Origin: Bdellovibrio sp. ArHS
GTDB lineage: Bacteria > Bdellovibrionota > Bdellovibrionia > Bdellovibrionales > Bdellovibrionaceae
Assembly (NCBI RefSeq): GCF_000786105.1
Contig: NZ_JTEV01000019.1
Span: 62,001-126,000 of the forward strand
Reading direction: 5' to 3'
Length of the DNA stretch: 64,000 nt
Made by a program: the position numbers and the translations under genes. Shown here in pieces: positions 3,230-26,583 of the stretch; position 1 is the stretch's first letter; the number at the start of each line of letters is the position of its first letter. Under the pieces are notes generated by a model. The model was not told where the DNA came from. It was given only the letters and a program-made list of their open reading frames with translations, and ran no database searches.

Positions 3230-4567
3230 ATGAAAGTACAAGACGATCCAAGACTCCATCATGATGTGGAGAAAATCTTCAGTGATCAGACCGATGAGAT
3301 CTGCGCCCGCGTAGATCGCGGTTTTGCATATCTTATGGGATTTCAATGGCTTGGCTGCATTCTGCTGGGGGCCTTTGTGACCCCAAGTACATGGCTTGGG
3401 CAGTTAAGCGGATCAAAAGAAAATGCGTTAATTGGGCTCCTTTTTGGGGCTCTTTTTGCAATTCCCCCTATCTATGGGGCTTTGAAGCTTCCCGGAGAAA
3501 AGGTGACTCGCTATGTGGTCGCCCTAGGGCAAATGCTATTTTCGACCCTTATAATCTATCTTACTGGCGGACGAATCGAATCGCATTTCCATATCTTTGT
3601 CTCGTTGGCGGCGCTGGCTTTTTACATGGATGTGCCCGTGTTGTGGCTGGGGTCTTCCGTCGTGATTATCGATCATCTGCTTCGTGGATTTATGCTGCCG
3701 ATGTCGATCTATGGGGTGAGTGCGGGGATCGAATGGAGATGGATCGAACATACAGCCTGGATTGGTTTTGAAAACTTTGTCCTGATGCTTGGAATTCAGC
3801 GCCATCGTACGGAACTTCGCGATGTGGCGATTTCGAAGGTTCAGATGATACAGGCGCGTGAAGAAGCTTTGCGACTGGCTTCCGTAAAATCCAGCTTTCT
3901 CAGTAACGTCAGTCATGAAATCCGCACGCCACTGAATAGCATTATGGGATTTTCGGATATCTTAAGAGATACGTCCCTTGATGAAGAACAGCAAGAATAC
4001 GTAAACACCATTCATCGTTGCTCTGATTCCCTTCTGCATCTGGTGAATGACATTCTAGACGTCTCAAAAATTGAAAATGGTCTGCTGCAGGTGGACTCTC
4101 ATCTTTTTGATGTGAAGGAGCTGCACAGCGATATTCAGAAAATATTCTTTATCAAATGTCAGGAAAAGGGACTGAGTTTAGAGCTTCACATCGATGAAAA
4201 TATTCCGGCCCAAGCCGTGGGAGACTCGCACCGGTTGCGACAAGTTCTTATGAATCTTGTTGGGAACGCTGTGAAGTTCACAGAACGGGGGCGGGTGCGT
4301 ATTGAGGTGAAGAAAGACTGCATTGCAAAAACCTATTCGTGGCATATCAGCGATACGGGGCGCGGAATTAAACGGGAAAACCTCAAGAAGCTGTTTCGCA
4401 GTTTTTATCAGGAGGACCCTTCCATTGCGCGCAAATACGGCGGCACGGGTTTGGGTCTTATGATTTCAAAAAACTTGATCGAAATTATGGGCGGACAGAT
4501 TTCCGTTTCAAGCAACTACGGAGAAGGAACGACATTTTCCTTCTCATTGCCATTGGAAGACGCATAA
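3230..4567 (+). CDS. Membrane-bound sensor histidine kinase
   Basis: A two-component sensor kinase with an integral-membrane input domain. The N-terminal half has several hydrophobic segments, including a GGRIESHFHIFVSLAALAFY stretch typical of one class of membrane sensor kinases. A coiled linker leads to the HisKA domain with the phospho-acceptor His in NVSHEIRTPLNS (about residue 229), then the HATPase domain with the N box (RLRQVLMNLVGNAVKF), G1 box (DTGRGI) and G2 box (GGTGLGLMISKN). No receiver domain and no neighbouring regulator gene, so it is an orphan kinase. The start is uncertain: an in-frame ATG at 3155 would add 25 residues, and the Shine-Dalgarno-like GAGAGGG sits very close to the ATG at 3230. 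Signal unknown. Confidence 0.88.
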   Translation: MKVQDDPRLHHDVEKIFSDQTDEICARVDRGFAYLMGFQWLGCILLGAFVTPSTWLGQLSGSKENALIGLLFGALFAIPPIYGALKLPGEKVTRYVVALGQMLFSTLIIYLTGGRIESHFHIFVSLAALAFYMDVPVLWLGSSVVIIDHLLRGFMLPMSIYGVSAGIEWRWIEHTAWIGFENFVLMLGIQRHRTELRDVAISKVQMIQAREEALRLASVKSSFLSNVSHEIRTPLNSIMGFSDILRDTSLDEEQQEYVNTIHRCSDSLLHLVNDILDVSKIENGLLQVDSHLFDVKELHSDIQKIFFIKCQEKGLSLELHIDENIPAQAVGDSHRLRQVLMNLVGNAVKFTERGRVRIEVKKDCIAKTYSWHISDTGRGIKRENLKKLFRSFYQEDPSIARKYGGTGLGLMISKNLIEIMGGQISVSSNYGEGTTFSFSLPLEDA

Positions 4568-17442: not shown

Positions 17443-18558
17443 TTATTCTGGTAGAAGTCCTTCAGGCATCTGTCCGCTTGCAATAGCTTTCGCAATTTTT
17501 AAATGGTCGGGATGGCCGACAATATTAATCACTTCATTAAGTGGCAAAGGTTCCGGGTTGGGAATTTTTGCTTTTTTCAGATCCATGATACGACGGTAGC
17601 TTTCGTCAAGACGTGCTTTGGATAGGCTGCCTTGAGCTGTCGCCTCTAGAACGGCTTCAAAGGCCTGGGGCGGAACTTCAGGATCATTGCAATATAGAAG
17701 TAGATCCACGCCGGCTTGTAAAGCGCGGACTGGAACCTCGGTGATACCATAGTGTTTTGTCATGGCCTTCATGCCTAGGTCGTCGGTCACAATCAAGCCG
17801 CGATATCGACACTCATCACGAATAATCTTTTGCACAAAGATTTCGGATAAGGTCACAGGCCAATCCGGATCTATCTTCGGAAACTTAATATGAGACGTCA
17901 TGACCATGTCGACGCGGGCTTTGAAACTTTTCTTGAACGGAATAAGCTCACAGGCTTCAAGCCTTTCCAGATCCAGGTTTTCTACTGGAAGGTCTTCGTG
18001 GCTATCTACAATTGTGTTGCCATGGCCAGGAAAGTGTTTGGCGCAGGTGATAATCTCTGCCTTGATATAGCCACGAACCAAAGCAGAAACATGTTTGGCA
18101 ACCAGTTCGGGATCAGAGCCTATGGACCGATCTCCGATCACGGTGTTGGCTTGGTTGGTAAATATATCCACGCACGGAGCAAAATCCAGGTTGATACCGA
18201 CTGCTTTCATTTCTTGCCCCATGCGGTTGGCAAAATGGAACGAGACCGTGGGGGCATCAAGTTCACCCAATTTTCTTAAAGGTGGCCAGACTGTGAAGGG
18301 TGATTTGAGTCTGTGGACGCGACCGCCTTCCATATCGATGCCGATAAAAAGAGGCGCTTTTTCTTCTTGTCTATGACGCAAGGATTGAATTTCAGCGCAC
18401 AGCTCACGCACTTGCTTCGGATCGGCTACGTTTCGTCCGAAAAGGCAGACGCCGCCAATATTGTTCTCAACGATAAATTTCTTTTCTTCTGCAGTCAGAG
18501 CATGTCCGGAGATTCCAATAAAAAAGTGCTGACCGATTATATGACTGATACTGCTCAT
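17443..18558 (-). CDS. nagZ: Beta-N-acetylhexosaminidase, glycoside hydrolase family 3
   Basis: NagZ removes GlcNAc from GlcNAc-anhydroMurNAc-peptides during murein recycling, normally in the cytoplasm. The 371-residue protein shows the GH3 TIM-barrel signatures LFIGIDMEGGRVHRL, FAPCVDI, CAKHFPGHGNTIVDSHEDLP (catalytic His/Asp loop) and LIVTDDLGM with the nucleophile Asp. No signal peptide is visible, so it should be cytoplasmic. It is somewhat longer than E. coli NagZ (341), with a C-terminal extension. It follows the 18562 gene by three bases. Together with AmgK and MurU at 24.5-26.5 kb it points to anhydroMurNAc/MurNAc recycling. Confidence 0.92.
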   Translation of the reverse strand: MSSISHIIGQHFFIGISGHALTAEEKKFIVENNIGGVCLFGRNVADPKQVRELCAEIQSLRHRQEEKAPLFIGIDMEGGRVHRLKSPFTVWPPLRKLGELDAPTVSFHFANRMGQEMKAVGINLDFAPCVDIFTNQANTVIGDRSIGSDPELVAKHVSALVRGYIKAEIITCAKHFPGHGNTIVDSHEDLPVENLDLERLEACELIPFKKSFKARVDMVMTSHIKFPKIDPDWPVTLSEIFVQKIIRDECRYRGLIVTDDLGMKAMTKHYGITEVPVRALQAGVDLLLYCNDPEVPPQAFEAVLEATAQGSLSKARLDESYRRIMDLKKAKIPNPEPLPLNEVINIVGHPDHLKIAKAIASGQMPEGLLPE

Positions 18559-19560: not shown

Positions 19561-21789
19561 ATGTTAAACAGACGAAGCACCTTCAATCAGAACTTAAAAA
19601 ATCGCAAAGGCCAGGTCGCCCTTTTCGTGGCTTTGATTTTTCAAATTCTGTTTCTATTCTTTGCGATGGTAATCAACGTCGGTCTTCTGGTTCATCATAA
19701 AATCAATCTGCAAAACTCTGTGGATCTTGCGGCTTATTACGCCGCCTCAAAACAAGCAGAGAACATGAACGCCATCGCCCACATGAATTATCAGATTCGT
19801 CAAAGCTGGAAACTGCTGGCGTGGCGCTATCGCATGTTAGGAAGTGCGGGGGAGTGGTACGAACATCCCTATGACAAGACAACAAGACAGCTGCGCCCGA
19901 ATCTGCTTGAAGACGTTGTGAATACATCGAATTCTATCGCCCGGGACTATCAAATAGCGCCGCCGTTTTGTATTACTTATATCCCGTTTAAGCCGATGCC
20001 ACCCGGAGAAAATACCTGCCGTAATATGGCCTCTCTGAAGGCCACGCGTCTTTGGAATGCTCCTGGCGTCATTGCATTTCACCAGGCCTTCTCGAAACAA
20101 ATTGATAAAACCAGTAATGTCCTAAAGAACAACGCAATTCAACGTTGCATGTATTTTGGTTCCTATAACTATCTGATGCTTGCGAAGTTTGTAGTTGGTT
20201 TCAATTTAGATCAAAACAATCGCATGGAAGCCATTAAACATCTTTCGCGCGCGACCAGTGGTACGAAATCTGACTTTTACGATATCGATGGGCAAAGTGT
20301 TAAGACTGGTGTTGAAAAAACGTTGGCTAATAATCTAACGGCGGCCAATCGTGCAACGGTTAAAATGGATATGTTCAACTCTTTAGGGGCAGATGGTTGT
20401 AACGCCGAAGGTTTGAATCAAGGAGCCCCAGCGAAATGGCTGACGCCTGTGCGTATTTATCCGGGCTTTAGATACATCGATACCATGTGCGGTGTTAACA
20501 ACGAAATTAAGATTATTCCTAAGGAACACTCCAACAACCCAGAAAGCTTTCCTTACCATAAAGCGAACACGGAAATGAGTTCGTCCATCGATAAAATGGC
20601 GGAGTGGATTGGGTATCGCGATAATCTTAATGACAACTTCAACTTTTCTATCGGTGTCGAAAAGAATCCGTGGTGCATGGCTTACACGGGGGTGTCAGCG
20701 ACCACACAACCAAAAATTCCATTTTCTCCTTTGGGTGCCATAACCCTAAAGGCCCGTGCATTTTACAAACCTTTCGGGGGAAGAATTGGGCCGTGGTACT
20801 ATAAAAACTGGAATCGTGGTTCAAATTGGTCTGAGGGAAACCCGAACGATAAGACGGATCCCAATATGGCTCCGCGTGTGACGGACACGGCAGCTCTTTC
20901 TACAATTAGTGAAAGTGCTGAAGGGACAGAGACTCGGGCCGCAAATTTCAGTCGTTTTGTAGGCGATAAATTTGGTTTGAAGACTTATAAGATGTTGGGT
21001 TATTACGGGAAAGCGATTTATGAATTAGATTCAGGCTGGAGAAACGGAACTGCTCCGAATGATTCTTCGAGTTCCAATTCGGTCTATGACGGTGTTGATG
21101 CACCCAACTTTGCTCACTGGGATGATCTGCCATTCGACTTTATCAATAAAGGCGGATCCGGTGATGTCATGGCGTTTGATCGTGTGAATAATCGTCCATC
21201 GCCGATGAGAATTTTGGAAACGGCAGCCATTCTGCCTGATACTTTCGATGCGGCTTACTATTCCATCGATCCGGACTACTACCATAACTATTATACCCGA
21301 TTGCGAGATGGCTTCTTTGCTGGTCCGGGGACTGCATTTAGTAGTACTCAAGATTTGCGCCCTGATCTTGGCTACCGTCGTGGCTATGTGCAAGGTGCAT
21401 ACGATTATGAAAAATTCAGTATCAAGGATCAATTTAAAGTGATTAATGATCCCGGTGATATGGTGAATACAAAGGGATTGGTCAAAGATCAATTTACATT
21501 CACGCTCAGCGATTGGAAGCATGTTTTAACTTCGTGGGCGCCGATAGGTTTGAATAATTACGCTCTGGATACCAATAAGTTTGGTAAATGTACTGATTTG
21601 CCCAAAGGGGCTGACAACAACGCGCCAAATCCTCCCGCCCCCGGAAATTGTGTTATGGGCGGAACCACGGGATACGCGGTAAAAATGGTATCTTCGGATT
21701 ATTTGCGTTCTGCTGATTTAAAGCTTGGCGGAGAATCAGCGGGCTCGGGCCCTTTGAAGAATCCCCCGCCGCCTGACGATGAATTCTAA
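19561..21789 (+). CDS. TadG/TadE-like membrane-anchored surface protein
   Basis: A 742-residue protein. Close to the N-terminus it has the TadE/TadG-like layout: RKGQVALFVALIFQILFLFF, a single membrane helix continuing to VINVGLLVHHK, then KINLQNSVDLAAYYAASK, as in the minor pilins of tight-adherence (Flp) pili. The remaining 680 residues are a large extracytoplasmic domain rich in Asn, Gly, Tyr and aromatic residues, of no family I recognise. ATG at 19561 is chosen because the helix then starts soon after a basic segment; a GTG at 19528 is also possible, and neither has a strong ribosome-binding site. No TadA ATPase, TadB/C or prepilin peptidase is adjacent. Likely first gene of a three-gene operon. 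Confidence 0.75.
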   Translation: MLNRRSTFNQNLKNRKGQVALFVALIFQILFLFFAMVINVGLLVHHKINLQNSVDLAAYYAASKQAENMNAIAHMNYQIRQSWKLLAWRYRMLGSAGEWYEHPYDKTTRQLRPNLLEDVVNTSNSIARDYQIAPPFCITYIPFKPMPPGENTCRNMASLKATRLWNAPGVIAFHQAFSKQIDKTSNVLKNNAIQRCMYFGSYNYLMLAKFVVGFNLDQNNRMEAIKHLSRATSGTKSDFYDIDGQSVKTGVEKTLANNLTAANRATVKMDMFNSLGADGCNAEGLNQGAPAKWLTPVRIYPGFRYIDTMCGVNNEIKIIPKEHSNNPESFPYHKANTEMSSSIDKMAEWIGYRDNLNDNFNFSIGVEKNPWCMAYTGVSATTQPKIPFSPLGAITLKARAFYKPFGGRIGPWYYKNWNRGSNWSEGNPNDKTDPNMAPRVTDTAALSTISESAEGTETRAANFSRFVGDKFGLKTYKMLGYYGKAIYELDSGWRNGTAPNDSSSSNSVYDGVDAPNFAHWDDLPFDFINKGGSGDVMAFDRVNNRPSPMRILETAAILPDTFDAAYYSIDPDYYHNYYTRLRDGFFAGPGTAFSSTQDLRPDLGYRRGYVQGAYDYEKFSIKDQFKVINDPGDMVNTKGLVKDQFTFTLSDWKHVLTSWAPIGLNNYALDTNKFGKCTDLPKGADNNAPNPPAPGNCVMGGTTGYAVKMVSSDYLRSADLKLGGESAGSGPLKNPPPPDDEF

Positions 21790-21882
21790 TTATTTCCGCT
21801 TAGAGCGTCTCATTTTGCAACACCAAGAAATTATTTAAGATCAATAGACCTTTGTCCGAAAAGTGAGACATAGGGGAATCTC

Positions 21883-23424
21883 ATGAAAAGTCTATTCATT
21901 GTACTTTTATTATTGGGCTCGATGAGTCTCTATACTCCTCATGCATTTGCTCAAAGTGGCGGGGCCAGTGCTCCAGCAGCCGGCGGTGGGGGAGGAGCTG
22001 GTGGTGGTGATTATTGTGCAGACACCGATGATGATAAGGCTAATGCCGCGGCACCAGGTACCGGACTGACCAACGGTGCAAGTGGAACGAATCCTGGGAA
22101 GGATGAAGCAGGAAAAGGGAAAATCGAAAGTTGCAACAAAATTAAATCCCTTATGGAAGGTATCTCTACCAACATTCAAACCTACAAACAAAAAGGAATG
22201 GTCAACGATCAGTTTGAAAAGATTAGAGAAGGCTTTGAGCAATATGCTGGTTGGCGACAATCTTGCTTAAGCAACCATTCTCGTGCCTCGACGGTCTGTC
22301 TGGAAGACTGGAGCCCCGATCTTGCTTCAACAGCTTCTAATATCAATATCCTTCTTTCTACTTTAGGAGGCATGGCGGTTAATGATTCATGTAGTGGCTT
22401 TGCAAAAGCCATGGACCTCGCAAAAGCGGGTTTGACAGCATATACGTCTGCCTGTGGTGTCATGAAGGCGGGCTGCGGGGTTTCTTGCGTAAAAGCTCGG
22501 TCGGGCTTGGAATCAATGCAAAAGTTTGCTGCGGCAGCGGCAAAGTCCACGCAGTGTGCGCCTTTGACAGGCCCGGATATGACTGCATGTGCTGAGGCGA
22601 AAGAAGCCTATGCGAAGGACCTTCAAAGAGTTGTCGATTATACCAAAGAAGAACAAGATAAGGCCGATAAGAAGTCCATATCGGGAAAAGTGAGTTTGTG
22701 CACGGGTAAATACGCTCAGCTTCTGGCTTCTGCCGGCACGGGAATTATGTCTTTGGCAAATTCAATGAAGCAAGGTCAAAAATGTGACGAAGATACTAGT
22801 GGTAGCTCGACCCCCACGACGACAGCTTCGACCGAAGAAAAATGTAAAGACTCCGCAAATGCGAATTTGCCAGAATGTATTTGTTTGGCAAATCCAAGAA
22901 CTCCAGGTTGTGCTAACAGTTATGAAAAGCCGGGTGAAAGTTCTACAATTTCGGGATTATCAACAGGATCAACTGATAAAACAAACGTAACAGGCGATCG
23001 CAGTGTTGCCGGTCTTGGCGGGGGCGGTATTCCTGGCCTTGATTCACCGACGGGCGGCAGCAGTGGTGGTGACAGTGGTTTGCCGGGCGCTCCTTCCGGC
23101 GGCAGCGCTGGTTTAGGCGGCGGTGGCGGCTTGAATAGTAGTGGTGGCGATAAACCGTCTGAAGCATCAGCAAAAGGCTTAGATACAAATATCCTTGGTG
23201 GTGCTGGCGGTGGCGGCGGCGGGGGGGGCTTCGGTAGTTTCGGTGGAGGTAGTGGTGATAAATATCGCGCTTATCTTCCCGGCGGAGCCAAAGATCCAAG
23301 TAAAGGTCTTGCGGGTCAGCAACAGGCTTGGAAAAACGAAGTGACCGGCCAAGGTGGCAAATCCAACTGGGAAAAAATTAAAGAACGCTACCGTGATAAT
23401 AAAAATACGTTGTTGAATAACTAG
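21883..23424 (+). CDS. Secreted Cys-rich protein with Gly-rich C-terminal half
   Basis: A 513-residue exported protein of unknown function. A signal peptide ends near HAFAQ; a short Gly/Ala linker (SGGASAPAAGGGGGAGGG) follows. Residues about 70-280 are helical with many cysteines in pairs (CNKIKSL, SCLSNHS, CLEDW, CSGF, ACGVMKAGCGVSC). A CxCxxxxxxxxxC unit (ECICLANPRTPGC) precedes a Gly/Ser-rich stretch of about 150 residues containing a coding G8 run. The C-terminus is basic and polar. Second gene of the TadG-like operon, 93 bases downstream of it, and nine bases before the third gene. Confidence 0.72.
   Translation: MKSLFIVLLLLGSMSLYTPHAFAQSGGASAPAAGGGGGAGGGDYCADTDDDKANAAAPGTGLTNGASGTNPGKDEAGKGKIESCNKIKSLMEGISTNIQTYKQKGMVNDQFEKIREGFEQYAGWRQSCLSNHSRASTVCLEDWSPDLASTASNINILLSTLGGMAVNDSCSGFAKAMDLAKAGLTAYTSACGVMKAGCGVSCVKARSGLESMQKFAAAAAKSTQCAPLTGPDMTACAEAKEAYAKDLQRVVDYTKEEQDKADKKSISGKVSLCTGKYAQLLASAGTGIMSLANSMKQGQKCDEDTSGSSTPTTTASTEEKCKDSANANLPECICLANPRTPGCANSYEKPGESSTISGLSTGSTDKTNVTGDRSVAGLGGGGIPGLDSPTGGSSGGDSGLPGAPSGGSAGLGGGGGLNSSGGDKPSEASAKGLDTNILGGAGGGGGGGGFGSFGGGSGDKYRAYLPGGAKDPSKGLAGQQQAWKNEVTGQGGKSNWEKIKERYRDNKNTLLNN
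23221..23228 (+). repeat. Homopolymeric G8 tract in coding sequence
   Basis: Eight consecutive G bases follow a GGC repeat inside the Gly-rich part of the 21883 gene. Such tracts can slip during replication and switch the frame; in this copy the frame is open. Confidence 0.8.
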
Positions 23425-23432
23425 GGGGCACA

Positions 23433-24461
23433 GTGACGAACACTTTTATCAAATACATTTGTGCATTAAGTTTGGCGTGCCCTTCTGTTGTATTGGCTGA
23501 GGCGACGACGGTGACGGCACCCGATGCGACACACAAGGCTCCGGGCACGGGTTCTGGCGCATCTAAGGGTATTGAGACTACAGGTGGTGGTCAGCCTTCC
23601 GTAAATGACTCTGCTGATAAAACCAATGATTCCAATAGTGATGGTAAAACAATGTCATTTTTGACGGGCGGTATGTTTATTGCGATGGGTACGAATGACA
23701 TTTCAACGGGAACAGCACCTTGCGGAACTCCGGCTGGATGTAATGTGCCCTTGATTGCCAAAGGCGTTTTCGAAGTTATGCTTGGAATGTTGTCAATGAA
23801 ACAGGGGGGCGCTCACGGTAAAACAGCCGGGATGGCAAACATCACGGGCCTCGATACAGATGGTTTGGGAAGTTTGAATACAGACAATACCACCTATGAC
23901 CCCAATGACCTGGGTGCCGCCGCAAAAGATCCTTACGCTGCTGCGGCCGCGAAGAATCTAAAGAAGCTTGAGAATATGGGCGTGATTAACGCGAAGGCTG
24001 GAACTGCTAAAGTGGGTGACAAAACCTATAAACTTTCAGACTTCGCCTCTAAGGAGTCGATGGCGGCAGCAGGAATTCCTTCGGGTGCCGTGGATGGTTT
24101 GATGTCTCTTGCGGGAGCTATTGAGAAAAAAGCGGCTGAAAAAATGGAAAAGTTGAAACTAGGAGCCAAGACTGCGGCCAACGGATTTGATGAAGGTGGC
24201 GGTAGTGGTGTCTCTGGCTCTGGACCATCAGGATATTCTGATGACAGCACAGATGGCTCAGGTGCTTATGCCGGAGCTGGCGGTGGTCGCGGCGCTCTTG
24301 ATCGCGATCCTTCAAGTCTTGCGGGTATGCAGAAGAACTACAATGGCGAGCCGATCGGTGTTGCCGCTGACAGTATATTTTTAATGATGACTCGAAGATA
24401 CAAAGTAAAAGAAAGCCAAGAGTCCTTCTTTACCGACGCAGAACTTGCATTGCAAAAGTAA
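23433..24461 (+). CDS. Secreted protein of the TadG-like operon, Ala/Gly-rich
   Basis: A 342-residue exported protein of unknown function, starting with GTG at 23433 behind a GGGGG site. A signal peptide ends near VVLAEA. Residues 40-70 are polar linker. A hydrophobic segment around residues 75-130 (FLTGGMFIAMGTNDISTG, GVFEVMLGMLSMKQGG) contains the cysteine pair CGTPAGC and could be a membrane-associated hairpin. The rest is Ala/Gly-rich with a Ser/Gly-rich tract, and the C-terminus (SIFLMMTRRYKVKE) is amphipathic. Third gene of the operon, nine bases after the previous stop, followed by a terminator at 24484. Confidence 0.7.
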   Translation: MTNTFIKYICALSLACPSVVLAEATTVTAPDATHKAPGTGSGASKGIETTGGGQPSVNDSADKTNDSNSDGKTMSFLTGGMFIAMGTNDISTGTAPCGTPAGCNVPLIAKGVFEVMLGMLSMKQGGAHGKTAGMANITGLDTDGLGSLNTDNTTYDPNDLGAAAKDPYAAAAAKNLKKLENMGVINAKAGTAKVGDKTYKLSDFASKESMAAAGIPSGAVDGLMSLAGAIEKKAAEKMEKLKLGAKTAANGFDEGGGSGVSGSGPSGYSDDSTDGSGAYAGAGGGRGALDRDPSSLAGMQKNYNGEPIGVAADSIFLMMTRRYKVKESQESFFTDAELALQK

Positions 24462-24483
24462 CAGAAAAATAAATGTCACGAGG

Positions 24484-24512
24484 AAAACGGTGTTGGTTCA
24501 ACACCGTTTTTT
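24484..24512. terminator. Bidirectional terminator between convergent genes
   Basis: AAAACGGTGTT and AACACCGTTTT arms form a perfect 11-base stem with a five-base loop, followed by T runs on both strands. It lies between the 23433 gene and the MurU-like gene and can end both transcripts. Confidence 0.88.
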
Positions 24513-24515
24513 ATT

Positions 24516-25520
24516 TTATACGTCTTCCAGAAAGAACGTGTTACTAGCTTTGGTGCCTGCGCTGACCTGAACGCCATCGCCGACAATTACATTTTCAAGA
24601 TGACAACCAGAGGCCACAGAGCTGCCGGAGCCGATACAAAAAAATCCCTCGATATGCGAAGATATATCGATCTTGGCCCCATCCGAAATCATGCGCTGTC
24701 CACCAAACTCAAGCGTGATATGCACGGGCTTTGGCGCATACTCTTGAATATTCGCCGTTAAAGCGCGCTTTTGAAAAGAATCTTCAGTAGAGGCTAGATA
24801 AGAAAAGCACTTTTTGCTGGCCTCTAAAAAATCACCGGGATTGCCTGTTTCAAACCAGCTGCACTGAAATGGAAATGCCTTTACCGTAAACCCTTTTTGA
24901 ATCGCGACAGTCAAAGCATCATACAAAATATTAGATTCGCCTGCCAACGGAATGAAAGAAAAGACTTCTTCAGACAAAATTTGCACACCAACAAAATGCC
25001 AAGCTTTTGCACTTCCGGGAATGGGTTGTTTGCCAAATCCCAGAACATTGTTCTGGGCATCCGTCCACACACCGCCGAACTGACTTCCGACACCGGGGTG
25101 ATCCATCACCAGCAAAGTGCCCAAGGCCTTGGTCTGCGAATGAAGATCGATAGCTTTCGCCAAGACGGAAGGATCCTGCGGAAGAATGACTTCATCCGCG
25201 TTCATCATAATGAAGTCACCGCCGTTTTGAAAATGTGCTCGAGCCTGTCCCAGCCCGCCACCACTTCCCAAAATAGCACCTGTTTCATTCGAGAAATGTA
25301 GGCTTTCGGCTTTGTGAGGAAGTCTGTGGAAAAGTTCGTGGATTTTCTTTGGTAAGTGAAAGGTGTTGACCACCAATTTTTCGATTTTAATTTCTCGTAA
25401 AAAGCCTAAAGCATGTGCGGCCAGGGGGATTGTTAAAAAAGGGATCGCAGGTTTAGGTAACACTGTTGTGTAGGGGCGAAGACGGGTGCCTTCGCCCGCA
25501 GCAAGCAACATCACATTCAT
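24516..25520 (-). CDS. MurU-like nucleotidyltransferase (MurNAc-1-phosphate uridylyltransferase)
   Basis: A 334-residue sugar-1-phosphate nucleotidyltransferase. The N-terminus has MLLAAGEGTRLRPYTTVLPK, the nucleotide-binding signature, with the metal-binding Asp in FIMMNADEVILP. In Pseudomonas, MurU converts MurNAc-1-phosphate to UDP-MurNAc and is made together with AmgK. Here it overlaps the AmgK-like gene by four bases (ATGA), which is the main reason for the MurU call rather than mannose-1-phosphate guanylyltransferase. It is about 110 residues longer than MurU of Pseudomonas, with a C-terminal left-handed-helix-like tail (FFCIGSGSSVASGCHLENVI). Catalytic substrate is inferred from context. 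Confidence 0.72.
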   Translation of the reverse strand: MNVMLLAAGEGTRLRPYTTVLPKPAIPFLTIPLAAHALGFLREIKIEKLVVNTFHLPKKIHELFHRLPHKAESLHFSNETGAILGSGGGLGQARAHFQNGGDFIMMNADEVILPQDPSVLAKAIDLHSQTKALGTLLVMDHPGVGSQFGGVWTDAQNNVLGFGKQPIPGSAKAWHFVGVQILSEEVFSFIPLAGESNILYDALTVAIQKGFTVKAFPFQCSWFETGNPGDFLEASKKCFSYLASTEDSFQKRALTANIQEYAPKPVHITLEFGGQRMISDGAKIDISSHIEGFFCIGSGSSVASGCHLENVIVGDGVQVSAGTKASNTFFLEDV

Positions 25521-26536
25521 AGTGATTCGTACTTTCTTTCAAGGGCACCGGAGTCGATCAGGACATCCGCAAAAGTTTTGTATTCAGGGAACTCGTTAAT
25601 AGCCTTCATAACACGTCGAAGTGTTCCCGACAGATACTTCAGATAACGGCGGTCTTGACGCAAGTGAAAGAAACTTGCGAAGCTGCCACAGGCCTTGAAG
25701 CAACGCTGAATGGATTGCAGTTCGTAAATACGGTCGAAGTGTTCTCTAGAAAAATCTTTGGGCAGGTACTGTTTGGATTTTTCCAAATAATATTCCAAAA
25801 GTTTATTGGCCATATCGTCGGTCATGTCTACGTAGGAATCCCGCATCAGACTGACGAGGTCGTACTGAATGGGACCCAAGCGCGCATCTTGGAAATCAAT
25901 AACGCTCATCTGATCAAGTTTGATCATGAGGTTTCGCGAATGATAATCTCGGTGGGCGATACGTTTGGGCTCTTTATCCAAACGTGTGCAAACATCTAAG
26001 AATATATCGCCGATCTCTTTCTGTAGCTTTTCATTAAATTGAAATTTGAGAACGCCGTGAATCAGGTTGTCTTTTCCATAATTCATTTCCCACAGAAACT
26101 TTTCGGTATTGAATTCGATTTTGAAAGCGGTGCAGTCTGATTTGTTCAAAGTAGCGGGATGGTGAATTTTCACAACCTCGTCTATCGCCATCTGATAGAA
26201 ATCCATCGCCGCTTCCTGATTTTGGCTTTCCCAGAATTTTCTTTCTAAGGTCAGATCACCAAGATCTTCAAGCAGAACCAGGCCCTCTTCCGGTGACATC
26301 GCAATGACTTCAGGAACGTGTACGCCGTTTTTTGCAAAATGATTAAGAACGCTTAAAAAAGGATAGTTGTCAGGTTGAAAGGGTTCCCATCGCATCAACA
26401 CCCATGACTGATGATCCAAGACCACTCGATAATAACGGCGGTTTGAAGCGTCGCCAGCCAAGGAAAAGACTTTATAAGAGTCGCTTTTCAGCGAGCGCGA
26501 AAGAAATGGGATTAAATATTCATCATGAGTGACCAT
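25517..26536 (-). CDS. AmgK-like sugar kinase (aminoglycoside phosphotransferase fold)
   Basis: A 339-residue kinase of the aminoglycoside phosphotransferase fold. Conserved features are SLAGDASNRRYYRV (nucleotide loop), LVLLEDLGDLTLER, the catalytic loop HRDYHSRNLMI and metal-binding VIDFQDARLGPIQYDLVSL. This set, especially DYHSRNLM with FQDA and GPIxYDLVSL, matches AmgK, the N-acetylmuramate/GlcNAc anomeric kinase of the Pseudomonas recycling route. It overlaps the MurU-like gene by four bases. Start uncertain: ATG at 26536 is chosen, but an upstream GTG at 26557 is also in frame. Role in MurNAc salvage is inferred from family and pairing. Confidence 0.8.
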   Translation of the reverse strand: MVTHDEYLIPFLSRSLKSDSYKVFSLAGDASNRRYYRVVLDHQSWVLMRWEPFQPDNYPFLSVLNHFAKNGVHVPEVIAMSPEEGLVLLEDLGDLTLERKFWESQNQEAAMDFYQMAIDEVVKIHHPATLNKSDCTAFKIEFNTEKFLWEMNYGKDNLIHGVLKFQFNEKLQKEIGDIFLDVCTRLDKEPKRIAHRDYHSRNLMIKLDQMSVIDFQDARLGPIQYDLVSLMRDSYVDMTDDMANKLLEYYLEKSKQYLPKDFSREHFDRIYELQSIQRCFKACGSFASFFHLRQDRRYLKYLSGTLRRVMKAINEFPEYKTFADVLIDSGALERKYESL

Positions 26537-26583
26537 AAGAAAAATTCTCACAGACACTCAGATGATTATCAAGGAATAAACTT

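Follow-up and report, generated by a model that had tools for sequence, protein, structure and literature searches.

In a 64,000-nucleotide stretch of the Bdellovibrio sp. ArHS genome (contig NZ_JTEV01000019.1 of assembly GCF_000786105.1, positions 62,001 to 126,000; hereafter the window), three consecutive genes encode a TadG-like protein and two predicted secreted partners, which we named GLY2 and GLY3. We propose that these genes provide a TadG/KilN-type pilus tip and two attack-phase partners that dock through a common module and would aid contact with prey, and we give this joint reading a probability of about one half. Its basis lies in features observed here, namely the TadG domain, tad loci devoid of TadG, conservation, gene order, the module, and a promoter motif, from which we infer the tip position, the docking, its receptor, and an adhesive role. 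Attack-phase promoter activity (bd0149) and the loss of prey attachment, killing, and rounding (bd0150::tn) are data of others, joined to this locus by locus-tag mapping. The question that the locus addresses is how Bdellovibrio recognizes prey and commits to invasion.

An orphan TadG-like protein and a Tad machine encoded elsewhere

The sequence-only reading that first singled out these genes had called the N-terminus of the first protein TadE/TadG-like, and a hidden Markov model search bore this out. The Pfam family PF13400 ("Tad", TadE/G-like) matched residues 17-63 of the 742-residue protein (E = 1.8e-8, 35 bits; curated cut-off 22.3 bits), while a PF07811 match stayed below threshold. In a genome-wide search the protein scored 40 bits and was the sole protein above the PF13400 cut-off in the source genome. 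From its sequence context, Gly17 is a candidate prepilin cleavage site. The residue at +5 after Gly17 is a nearly invariant Phe rather than Glu, which suits a terminal position of the protein, since GspK, the tip pseudopilin of type II secretion, likewise lacks Glu5.

An AlphaFold2 model built from 51 window and locus sequences was confident (predicted local distance difference test score (pLDDT) 89, predicted template modelling score 0.90), and shows a beta scaffold with small helices alongside two long ones, the N-terminal helix (residues 4-95) and a second at 172-232. The exported C-terminal region, ~645 residues beyond the N-terminal helix, is well folded in this model and carries conserved cysteines at positions 137, 153, 196, 677, and 697. 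Its description as a large unfamiliar ectodomain still holds: comparison of the model to the PDB with Foldseek and VIA-align 2 yielded nothing at E ≤ 0.001, the best structural score (Z 4.0) pointed to unrelated STAT cores, and a sequence profile found no match in the PDB. This absence of PDB relatives does not prove a new fold. A von Willebrand A domain, known in some TadG proteins, had no Pfam match in this protein and is not required. A published account of the Myxococcus Kil pilus describes its tip pilin, KilN4, as related to TadG, with a pair of long helices and a large beta scaffold that lack PDB relatives; it also reports a KilN-like Tip in B. bacteriovorus from a structure search (PMC12075869), so that a tip role may already have been put forward for the protein studied here.

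The TadG-like gene is a phylum-wide core gene, found at full length in 60/60 relatives of the order and detected in 265 of 291 Bdellovibrionota genomes. Among the matches listed, those from classes beyond Bdellovibrionia span mainly the first ~220 residues, and therefore the filament-facing part is kept while the ectodomain diverges. Full-length ectodomain similarity was found only in Bdellovibrionia, and the invariant Gly-Gln followed by a hydrophobic helix is kept across the phylum. A relative of the TadZ-TadA protein was present in each of the 33 genomes tested, 20 of which lacked a TadG match (many of these 20 are incomplete assemblies). In one complete Bdellovibrio genome (G023; L038 6309-8572), the gene is split into two open reading frames by a frameshift or a sequencing error.

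The window contains no Tad core gene, as the sequence-only reading had noted for the neighbourhood; the closest candidate, a weak TadB/TadC-like pair, sits ~13 kb beyond its left edge. The Tad core of the source genome sits instead at two other loci. The first, on contig C15, encodes in order a Flp pilin, two minor-pilin-like proteins, CpaB/RcpC, a secretin, a TadZ-TadA fusion, and TadB. Read by eye, both minor-pilin-like proteins (L059 2751-3395, G^LISAEF; 3386-3865, G^MAVFE) carry prepilin signatures of the E5 type (G^xxxxE), and neither has a TadE match in Pfam. The second, on contig C11, encodes TadC, then a DUF192 protein, then three FHA-domain proteins. Neither locus includes a TadG. A Tad core split over loci, with over-represented FHA proteins (here three at the tadC locus), is a Kil-type arrangement. 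We take one relative (G006) to be strain HD100, as its tad operon has a layout consistent with that published for bd0109-bd0119. The C15 and C11 loci correspond to HD100 bd0109-bd0119 and bd0470-bd0474 (PMC5430801, PMC6561027). The idea of an adhesive or pilus-like apparatus that borrows a machine encoded elsewhere thus fits with regard to the machine, because other loci of this genome encode a Tad machine that has no TadG; the physical link of the partners to the pilus, its other part, is one that we infer.

Several further observations concern Tad-like genes. TadZ and TadA are fused in a single 738-residue protein (ParA/MinD domain plus T2SSE; L059 6404-8620) with relatives across the phylum. 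A weak second TadB/TadC-like pair (245 and 155 residues) was noted at L061 7440-8602 (source genome C19:47.9-49.1 kb). Two other pilin-like clusters were rejected, one on contig C21, the second match of the TadG search, as a general-secretion pseudopilin cluster, and one on contig C4 as a type IVa-like pseudopilin cluster.

We consider it likely that the TadG-like protein forms the tip of a Tad/Kil pilus. A membrane-anchored envelope protein unconnected to pili, which retained only the Tad N-terminus, would agree with a gene placed outside tad clusters in a wall-recycling neighbourhood and with Phe instead of Glu at +5. We give this explanation very little credence, since the TadZ-TadA core accompanies the TadG-like protein across the phylum, the genome holds no second TadG candidate, and the Gly-Gln and hydrophobic helix persist phylum-wide over a diverging ectodomain.

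Two predicted exported partners with a common C-terminal module

The three open reading frames were found where the sequence-only reading had placed them, and a terminator closes the set, as that reading had noted (Table 1). Terminator-like sites in the region are as numerous as in shuffled sequences, and the one closing the set is by far the strongest. Of the description of the partners as exported, Cys- and Gly-rich proteins of no recognisable family, some parts needed revision. Both GLY2 and GLY3 start with a segment that reads as a signal peptide, but "Cys-rich" applies to GLY2 alone, because GLY2 has 16 cysteines (12 nearly invariant) and GLY3 has four, of which two lie past the signal peptide. 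Neither protein matched a Pfam or NCBIfam family, yet both are conserved throughout the class Bdellovibrionia.

Table 1 Features of the TadG-GLY2-GLY3 locus (window positions) and of further GLY2-family genes (locus positions).
Feature	Position	Strand	Description
TadG-like gene	19561..21789	+	742 aa from ATG
PF13400 N-terminal segment	19609..19749	+	invariant Gly17, then hydrophobic helix
Ectodomain of TadG-like protein	19846..21786	+	second long helix 172-232, beta scaffold
Sigma-28 (FliA)-type promoter, putative	21836..21862	+	TAAG-N15-TCCGAAAA, 48 nt upstream of GLY2 start
GLY2, secreted partner 1	21883..23424	+	513 aa
Signal-peptide-like N-terminus of GLY2	21883..21954	+	MKSLFIVLLLLGSMSLYTPHAFAQ, by reading
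Helical head of GLY2	22120..22911	+	12 nearly invariant Cys
Disordered Gly-rich tether of GLY2	22921..23256	+	residues 347-458, pLDDT 30-45
C-terminal module of GLY2	23308..23412	+	LAG...VTG.GGKSNWEKI..RY, common to GLY3 and relatives
GLY3, secreted partner 2	23433..24461	+	342 aa
C-terminal module of GLY3	24318..24428	+	LAGMQKNYNGEPIGVAADSIFLMMTRRYK, E 6.5e-18
Intrinsic terminator	24482..24512	+	14-pair stem + T run
Further GLY2-family genes	L167 6321-7880, 7949-9469 (C3); L170 3556-5037 (C13); L168 6114-10574 (HD100-like G006)		

The GLY2 head is modelled with high confidence at about residues 80-336 and carries the cysteine framework C-x10-C ... C-x6-C-x3-C ... C-x-C-x8-C; beyond the tether, the model closes with a C-terminal helix. 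Weak helical-bundle matches of this model in the PDB, including ClyA, were judged to reflect composition and not homology. Profile matches to linkers of single-chain variable fragments are Gly-Ser artefacts, and weak matches to DUF5630, DUF4473, and DUF885, all below cut-offs, were disregarded. Pfam and NCBIfam searches gave no toxin or enzyme domain in the GLY proteins, and no lipobox was found among the window proteins.

GLY2 and GLY3 end in a common module, recovered in a one-against-one profile-profile comparison of the two (probability 77%, E = 2.3e-6). Beyond the window, a joint profile detected two tandem genes on contig C3 (E = 0.002 and 0.035) and one on contig C13 (E = 0.12) of the source genome, together with three tandem genes in HD100 (E = 0.009-0.015). 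All six have the module at the extreme C-terminus, a similar length, a signal peptide, and the Cys spacing of GLY2, an agreement that makes the weak C13 match credible. These genes sit away from any TadG, encode 20-24 cysteines, and are near-identical among themselves over the C-terminal 52 residues. The signal peptide, Cys framework, Gly tether, and module (SNWEKI..RY or IWxKIQNRY) were likewise found in 42 GLY2 homologues beside TadG, whose Cys spacing is kept by the C3, C13, and HD100 members. Judged by these sequence features, GLY2 and GLY3 represent a predicted exported family that is previously undescribed and centred on Bdellovibrionia; a search for the family outside this class returned marginal matches only.

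TadG, GLY2, and GLY3 were found together and in the same order across Bdellovibrionales, in line with the proposed check of their synteny. The full order nagZ, DUF3108-position gene, TadG, GLY2, GLY3, nucleotidyltransferase is family-wide and extends through much of the order. We assigned the label DUF3108 by reading alone, presuming the family; Pfam gave no match for that protein. GLY2 or GLY3 is duplicated next to TadG in three loci (L117, L119, and L105), as if the repertoire of heads expands. One contig labelled as a Streptomyces griseus metagenome-assembled genome (L118) carries this Bdellovibrionales locus and is mislabelled or part of a mixed bin. The surroundings of the set resemble a pathway for recycling N-acetylmuramic acid, with NagZ at 17443-18558, a MurU-like nucleotidyltransferase at 24516-25520, and a kinase-like protein (AmgK-like) at 25517-26557; in relatives, AnmK (L041) or NamZ (L035) stands beside GLY3.

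The sequence upstream of GLY2 resembles the FliA (sigma-28) consensus. A FliA-type motif recurs at the same distance in genus relatives, and its counterpart in a family relative (L044) reads TAAG-N15-GCCGATAA. A motif score of at least 9/12 was reached upstream of 29/42 GLY2 genes, compared to 5/52 TadG genes and 10/84 random stretches; 6% of 120-base pieces drawn at random from the window reach it. Among the three genes the motif is limited to GLY2, with no conserved one at GLY3. The TAD operon is likewise FliA-driven. Between TadG and GLY2, several species carry a palindrome close to TGTCTCA-n3-TGAGACA (e.g., L039 6126 and L043 9594), and similar palindromes precede other genes (window 29404, L168 5976, L170 3473), possibly as a regulator site. 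In the window, the palindrome at 21806-21870 is degenerate, and we dropped it as a main claim.

Probable correspondence to bd0149 and bd0150, and the proposed role of the partners

Published work on HD100 can be mapped onto this locus. Both sequenced biofilm-forming host-independent strains carry the change c.767G>T (G256V) in Bd0149 (PMC11323537), the Pbd0149 promoter carries a FliA motif and shows attack-phase activity (PMC12622784), and Bd0152 has been named a muramidase (PMC11656739). Codon 256 in HD100 is GGT in GLY2, counted from the first start, and the muramidase fits the NamZ gene that follows GLY3 there. We therefore equate Bd0149 with GLY2, because of the GGT codon, the FliA motif at GLY2 only, and the position of Bd0152 as NamZ. 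The other candidates fared worse: TadG has AAC at codon 256 and no alternative start yields Gly256; GLY3 could have Gly256 from an internal start but lacks a conserved FliA-type promoter; and NamZ could have Gly256 but fits the published Bd0152. On this comparison of sequences, it is very probable that Bd0149 is GLY2 and that Bd0150 is one of the pair, most likely GLY3, and the TadG-like gene is most likely Bd0148. Attack-phase expression and prey attachment, both proposed earlier as checks, are in this way tied to GLY2/GLY3 through the literature (Pbd0149 and Bd0150::tn). In the 2019 study, Bd0150::tn is a class I mutant in which attachment, killing, and rounding of prey are all lost, with the function of the gene unexplained, and the tadC mutant Bd0470::tn falls into the same class (PMC6561027).

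Under the joint reading, the TadG-like protein would be the TadG/KilN-type minor pilin absent from the dispersed Kil-like Tad pilus loci. At the end of the Flp filament, its N-terminal helix would join the pair of E5-type minor pilins from the tad operon in a bundle, leaving the large, disulfide-containing ectodomain to form the outward-facing tip. GLY2 and GLY3 would be exported by Sec and made in attack phase from the FliA promoter. Their common C-terminal module would dock to one receptor, either the tip complex or the Tad outer-membrane port, the flexible Gly tether would let GLY2 present its Cys-stapled helical head, and tip and partners would make the prey contact required ahead of invasion. 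Docking of GLY2 and GLY3 to the pilus or port is, in our estimate, an even chance at best. A doubtful extension is that Bdellovibrionia mount exchangeable secreted heads (Cys-stapled, Gly-tethered, and sharing one docking module) on a Tad/Kil tip or port; if true, the exchange of secreted heads, not of pilins, would be how the predator varies the surface that meets its prey.

Several points weigh against the joint reading. The three genes lie outside any tad cluster, on a separate contig at least ~139 kb away by contig geometry, and in HD100 25.6 kb separate the TadG gene from the TAD operon. nagZ and the DUF3108-position gene are as syntenic as GLY2 and GLY3, and the KilN likeness of the TadG model is an agreement in words with the published description. 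In addition, GLY2 and GLY3 seem to form their own transcription unit, GLY2 relatives occur at loci without TadG, and the partners are mostly limited to Bdellovibrionia while TadG is phylum-wide. Finally, flp1/2/4 mutants keep prey attachment and Bd0150::tn loses it (PMC5430801, PMC6561027); therefore, attachment by GLY2/GLY3 may not need the pilus filament. The GLY2 promoter, the module relatives away from TadG, the narrower distribution, and the attachment phenotypes all favour the main rival, in which TadG is a pilus tip while GLY2 and GLY3 are unrelated, independent surface adhesins whose module docks to another envelope component. We nevertheless regard it as unlikely, since the adjacency and order of TadG, GLY2, and GLY3 persist in families where other neighbours changed, and since tadC::tn and bd0150::tn share a phenotype class.

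That shared class would also suit a role at the Tad port, with GLY2 and GLY3 as outer-membrane or periplasmic accessories replacing the TadD pilotin and RcpB, and the module binding the secretin. Both are predicted exported proteins with a common C-terminal binding segment, and the Kil system lacks TadD, RcpB, and TadG according to PMC8460266. The missing lipobox among window proteins, the surface-exposed look of the Gly tether and Cys head, and the number of proteins with the module, which reaches five in a genome and is too high for a part of the port, make this improbable. Alternatively, GLY2, GLY3, and their relatives could be proteins secreted via the Tad/Kil port upon prey contact, with the module as secretion signal, as a common C-terminal segment on otherwise differing secreted proteins and an attack-phase promoter would allow. 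We hold this to be quite improbable as well: no toxin or enzyme domain was found in the Pfam/NCBIfam searches, the GLY2 model has only weak helical-bundle matches in the PDB, and loss of bd0150 abolishes attachment, an early step.

Comparison with known systems

Large, variable TadG/KilN pilins at Tad tips have been described before. Relative to the published accounts compared, three elements would be new: an orphan TadG that fills the subunit gap in the Bdellovibrio machine, the GLY family defined by a Cys framework and a shared C-terminal module, and the link of bd0149/bd0150 to this locus. Its TadG is the subunit that the Tad loci described so far in this predator lack, bd0150 gains a concrete setting, and an exported family is defined whose common module is open to docking tests.

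The closest counterpart is the KilL-KilM-KilN Tip of Myxococcus xanthus (PMC12075869). It shares with the present system a large TadG-homologous pilin, two smaller minor pilins, machine genes spread over several loci, and a predatory lifestyle, and the published description of its two-helix/beta-scaffold domain without PDB relatives agrees in words with the TadG model. Here, however, the TadG gene stands apart from its two minor-pilin genes, and it is followed by two putatively Sec-exported partners with a common C-terminal module, undescribed in the parts of the Kil accounts consulted. Classical TadG/CpaP proteins (PF13400) have the same PF13400 N-terminus, minor-pilin-like helix, and large exported C-terminal region, but the present gene has no tad cluster around it (tadE/tadF neighbours are usual, not strictly required) and no von Willebrand domain. 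The Bdellovibrio loci bd0109-bd0119 and bd0470-bd0474 belong to the same group of organisms, with a FliA-type promoter at the TAD operon as at GLY2, and differ in lacking both TadG and a GLY-family protein. PilY1 of type IVa pili resembles the partners only in the way it may work, as a secreted non-pilin partner proposed to sit on minor pilins and serve adhesion; no relation to it in sequence or domains was found, and GLY2 and GLY3 are far smaller and carry a C-terminal docking-like module.

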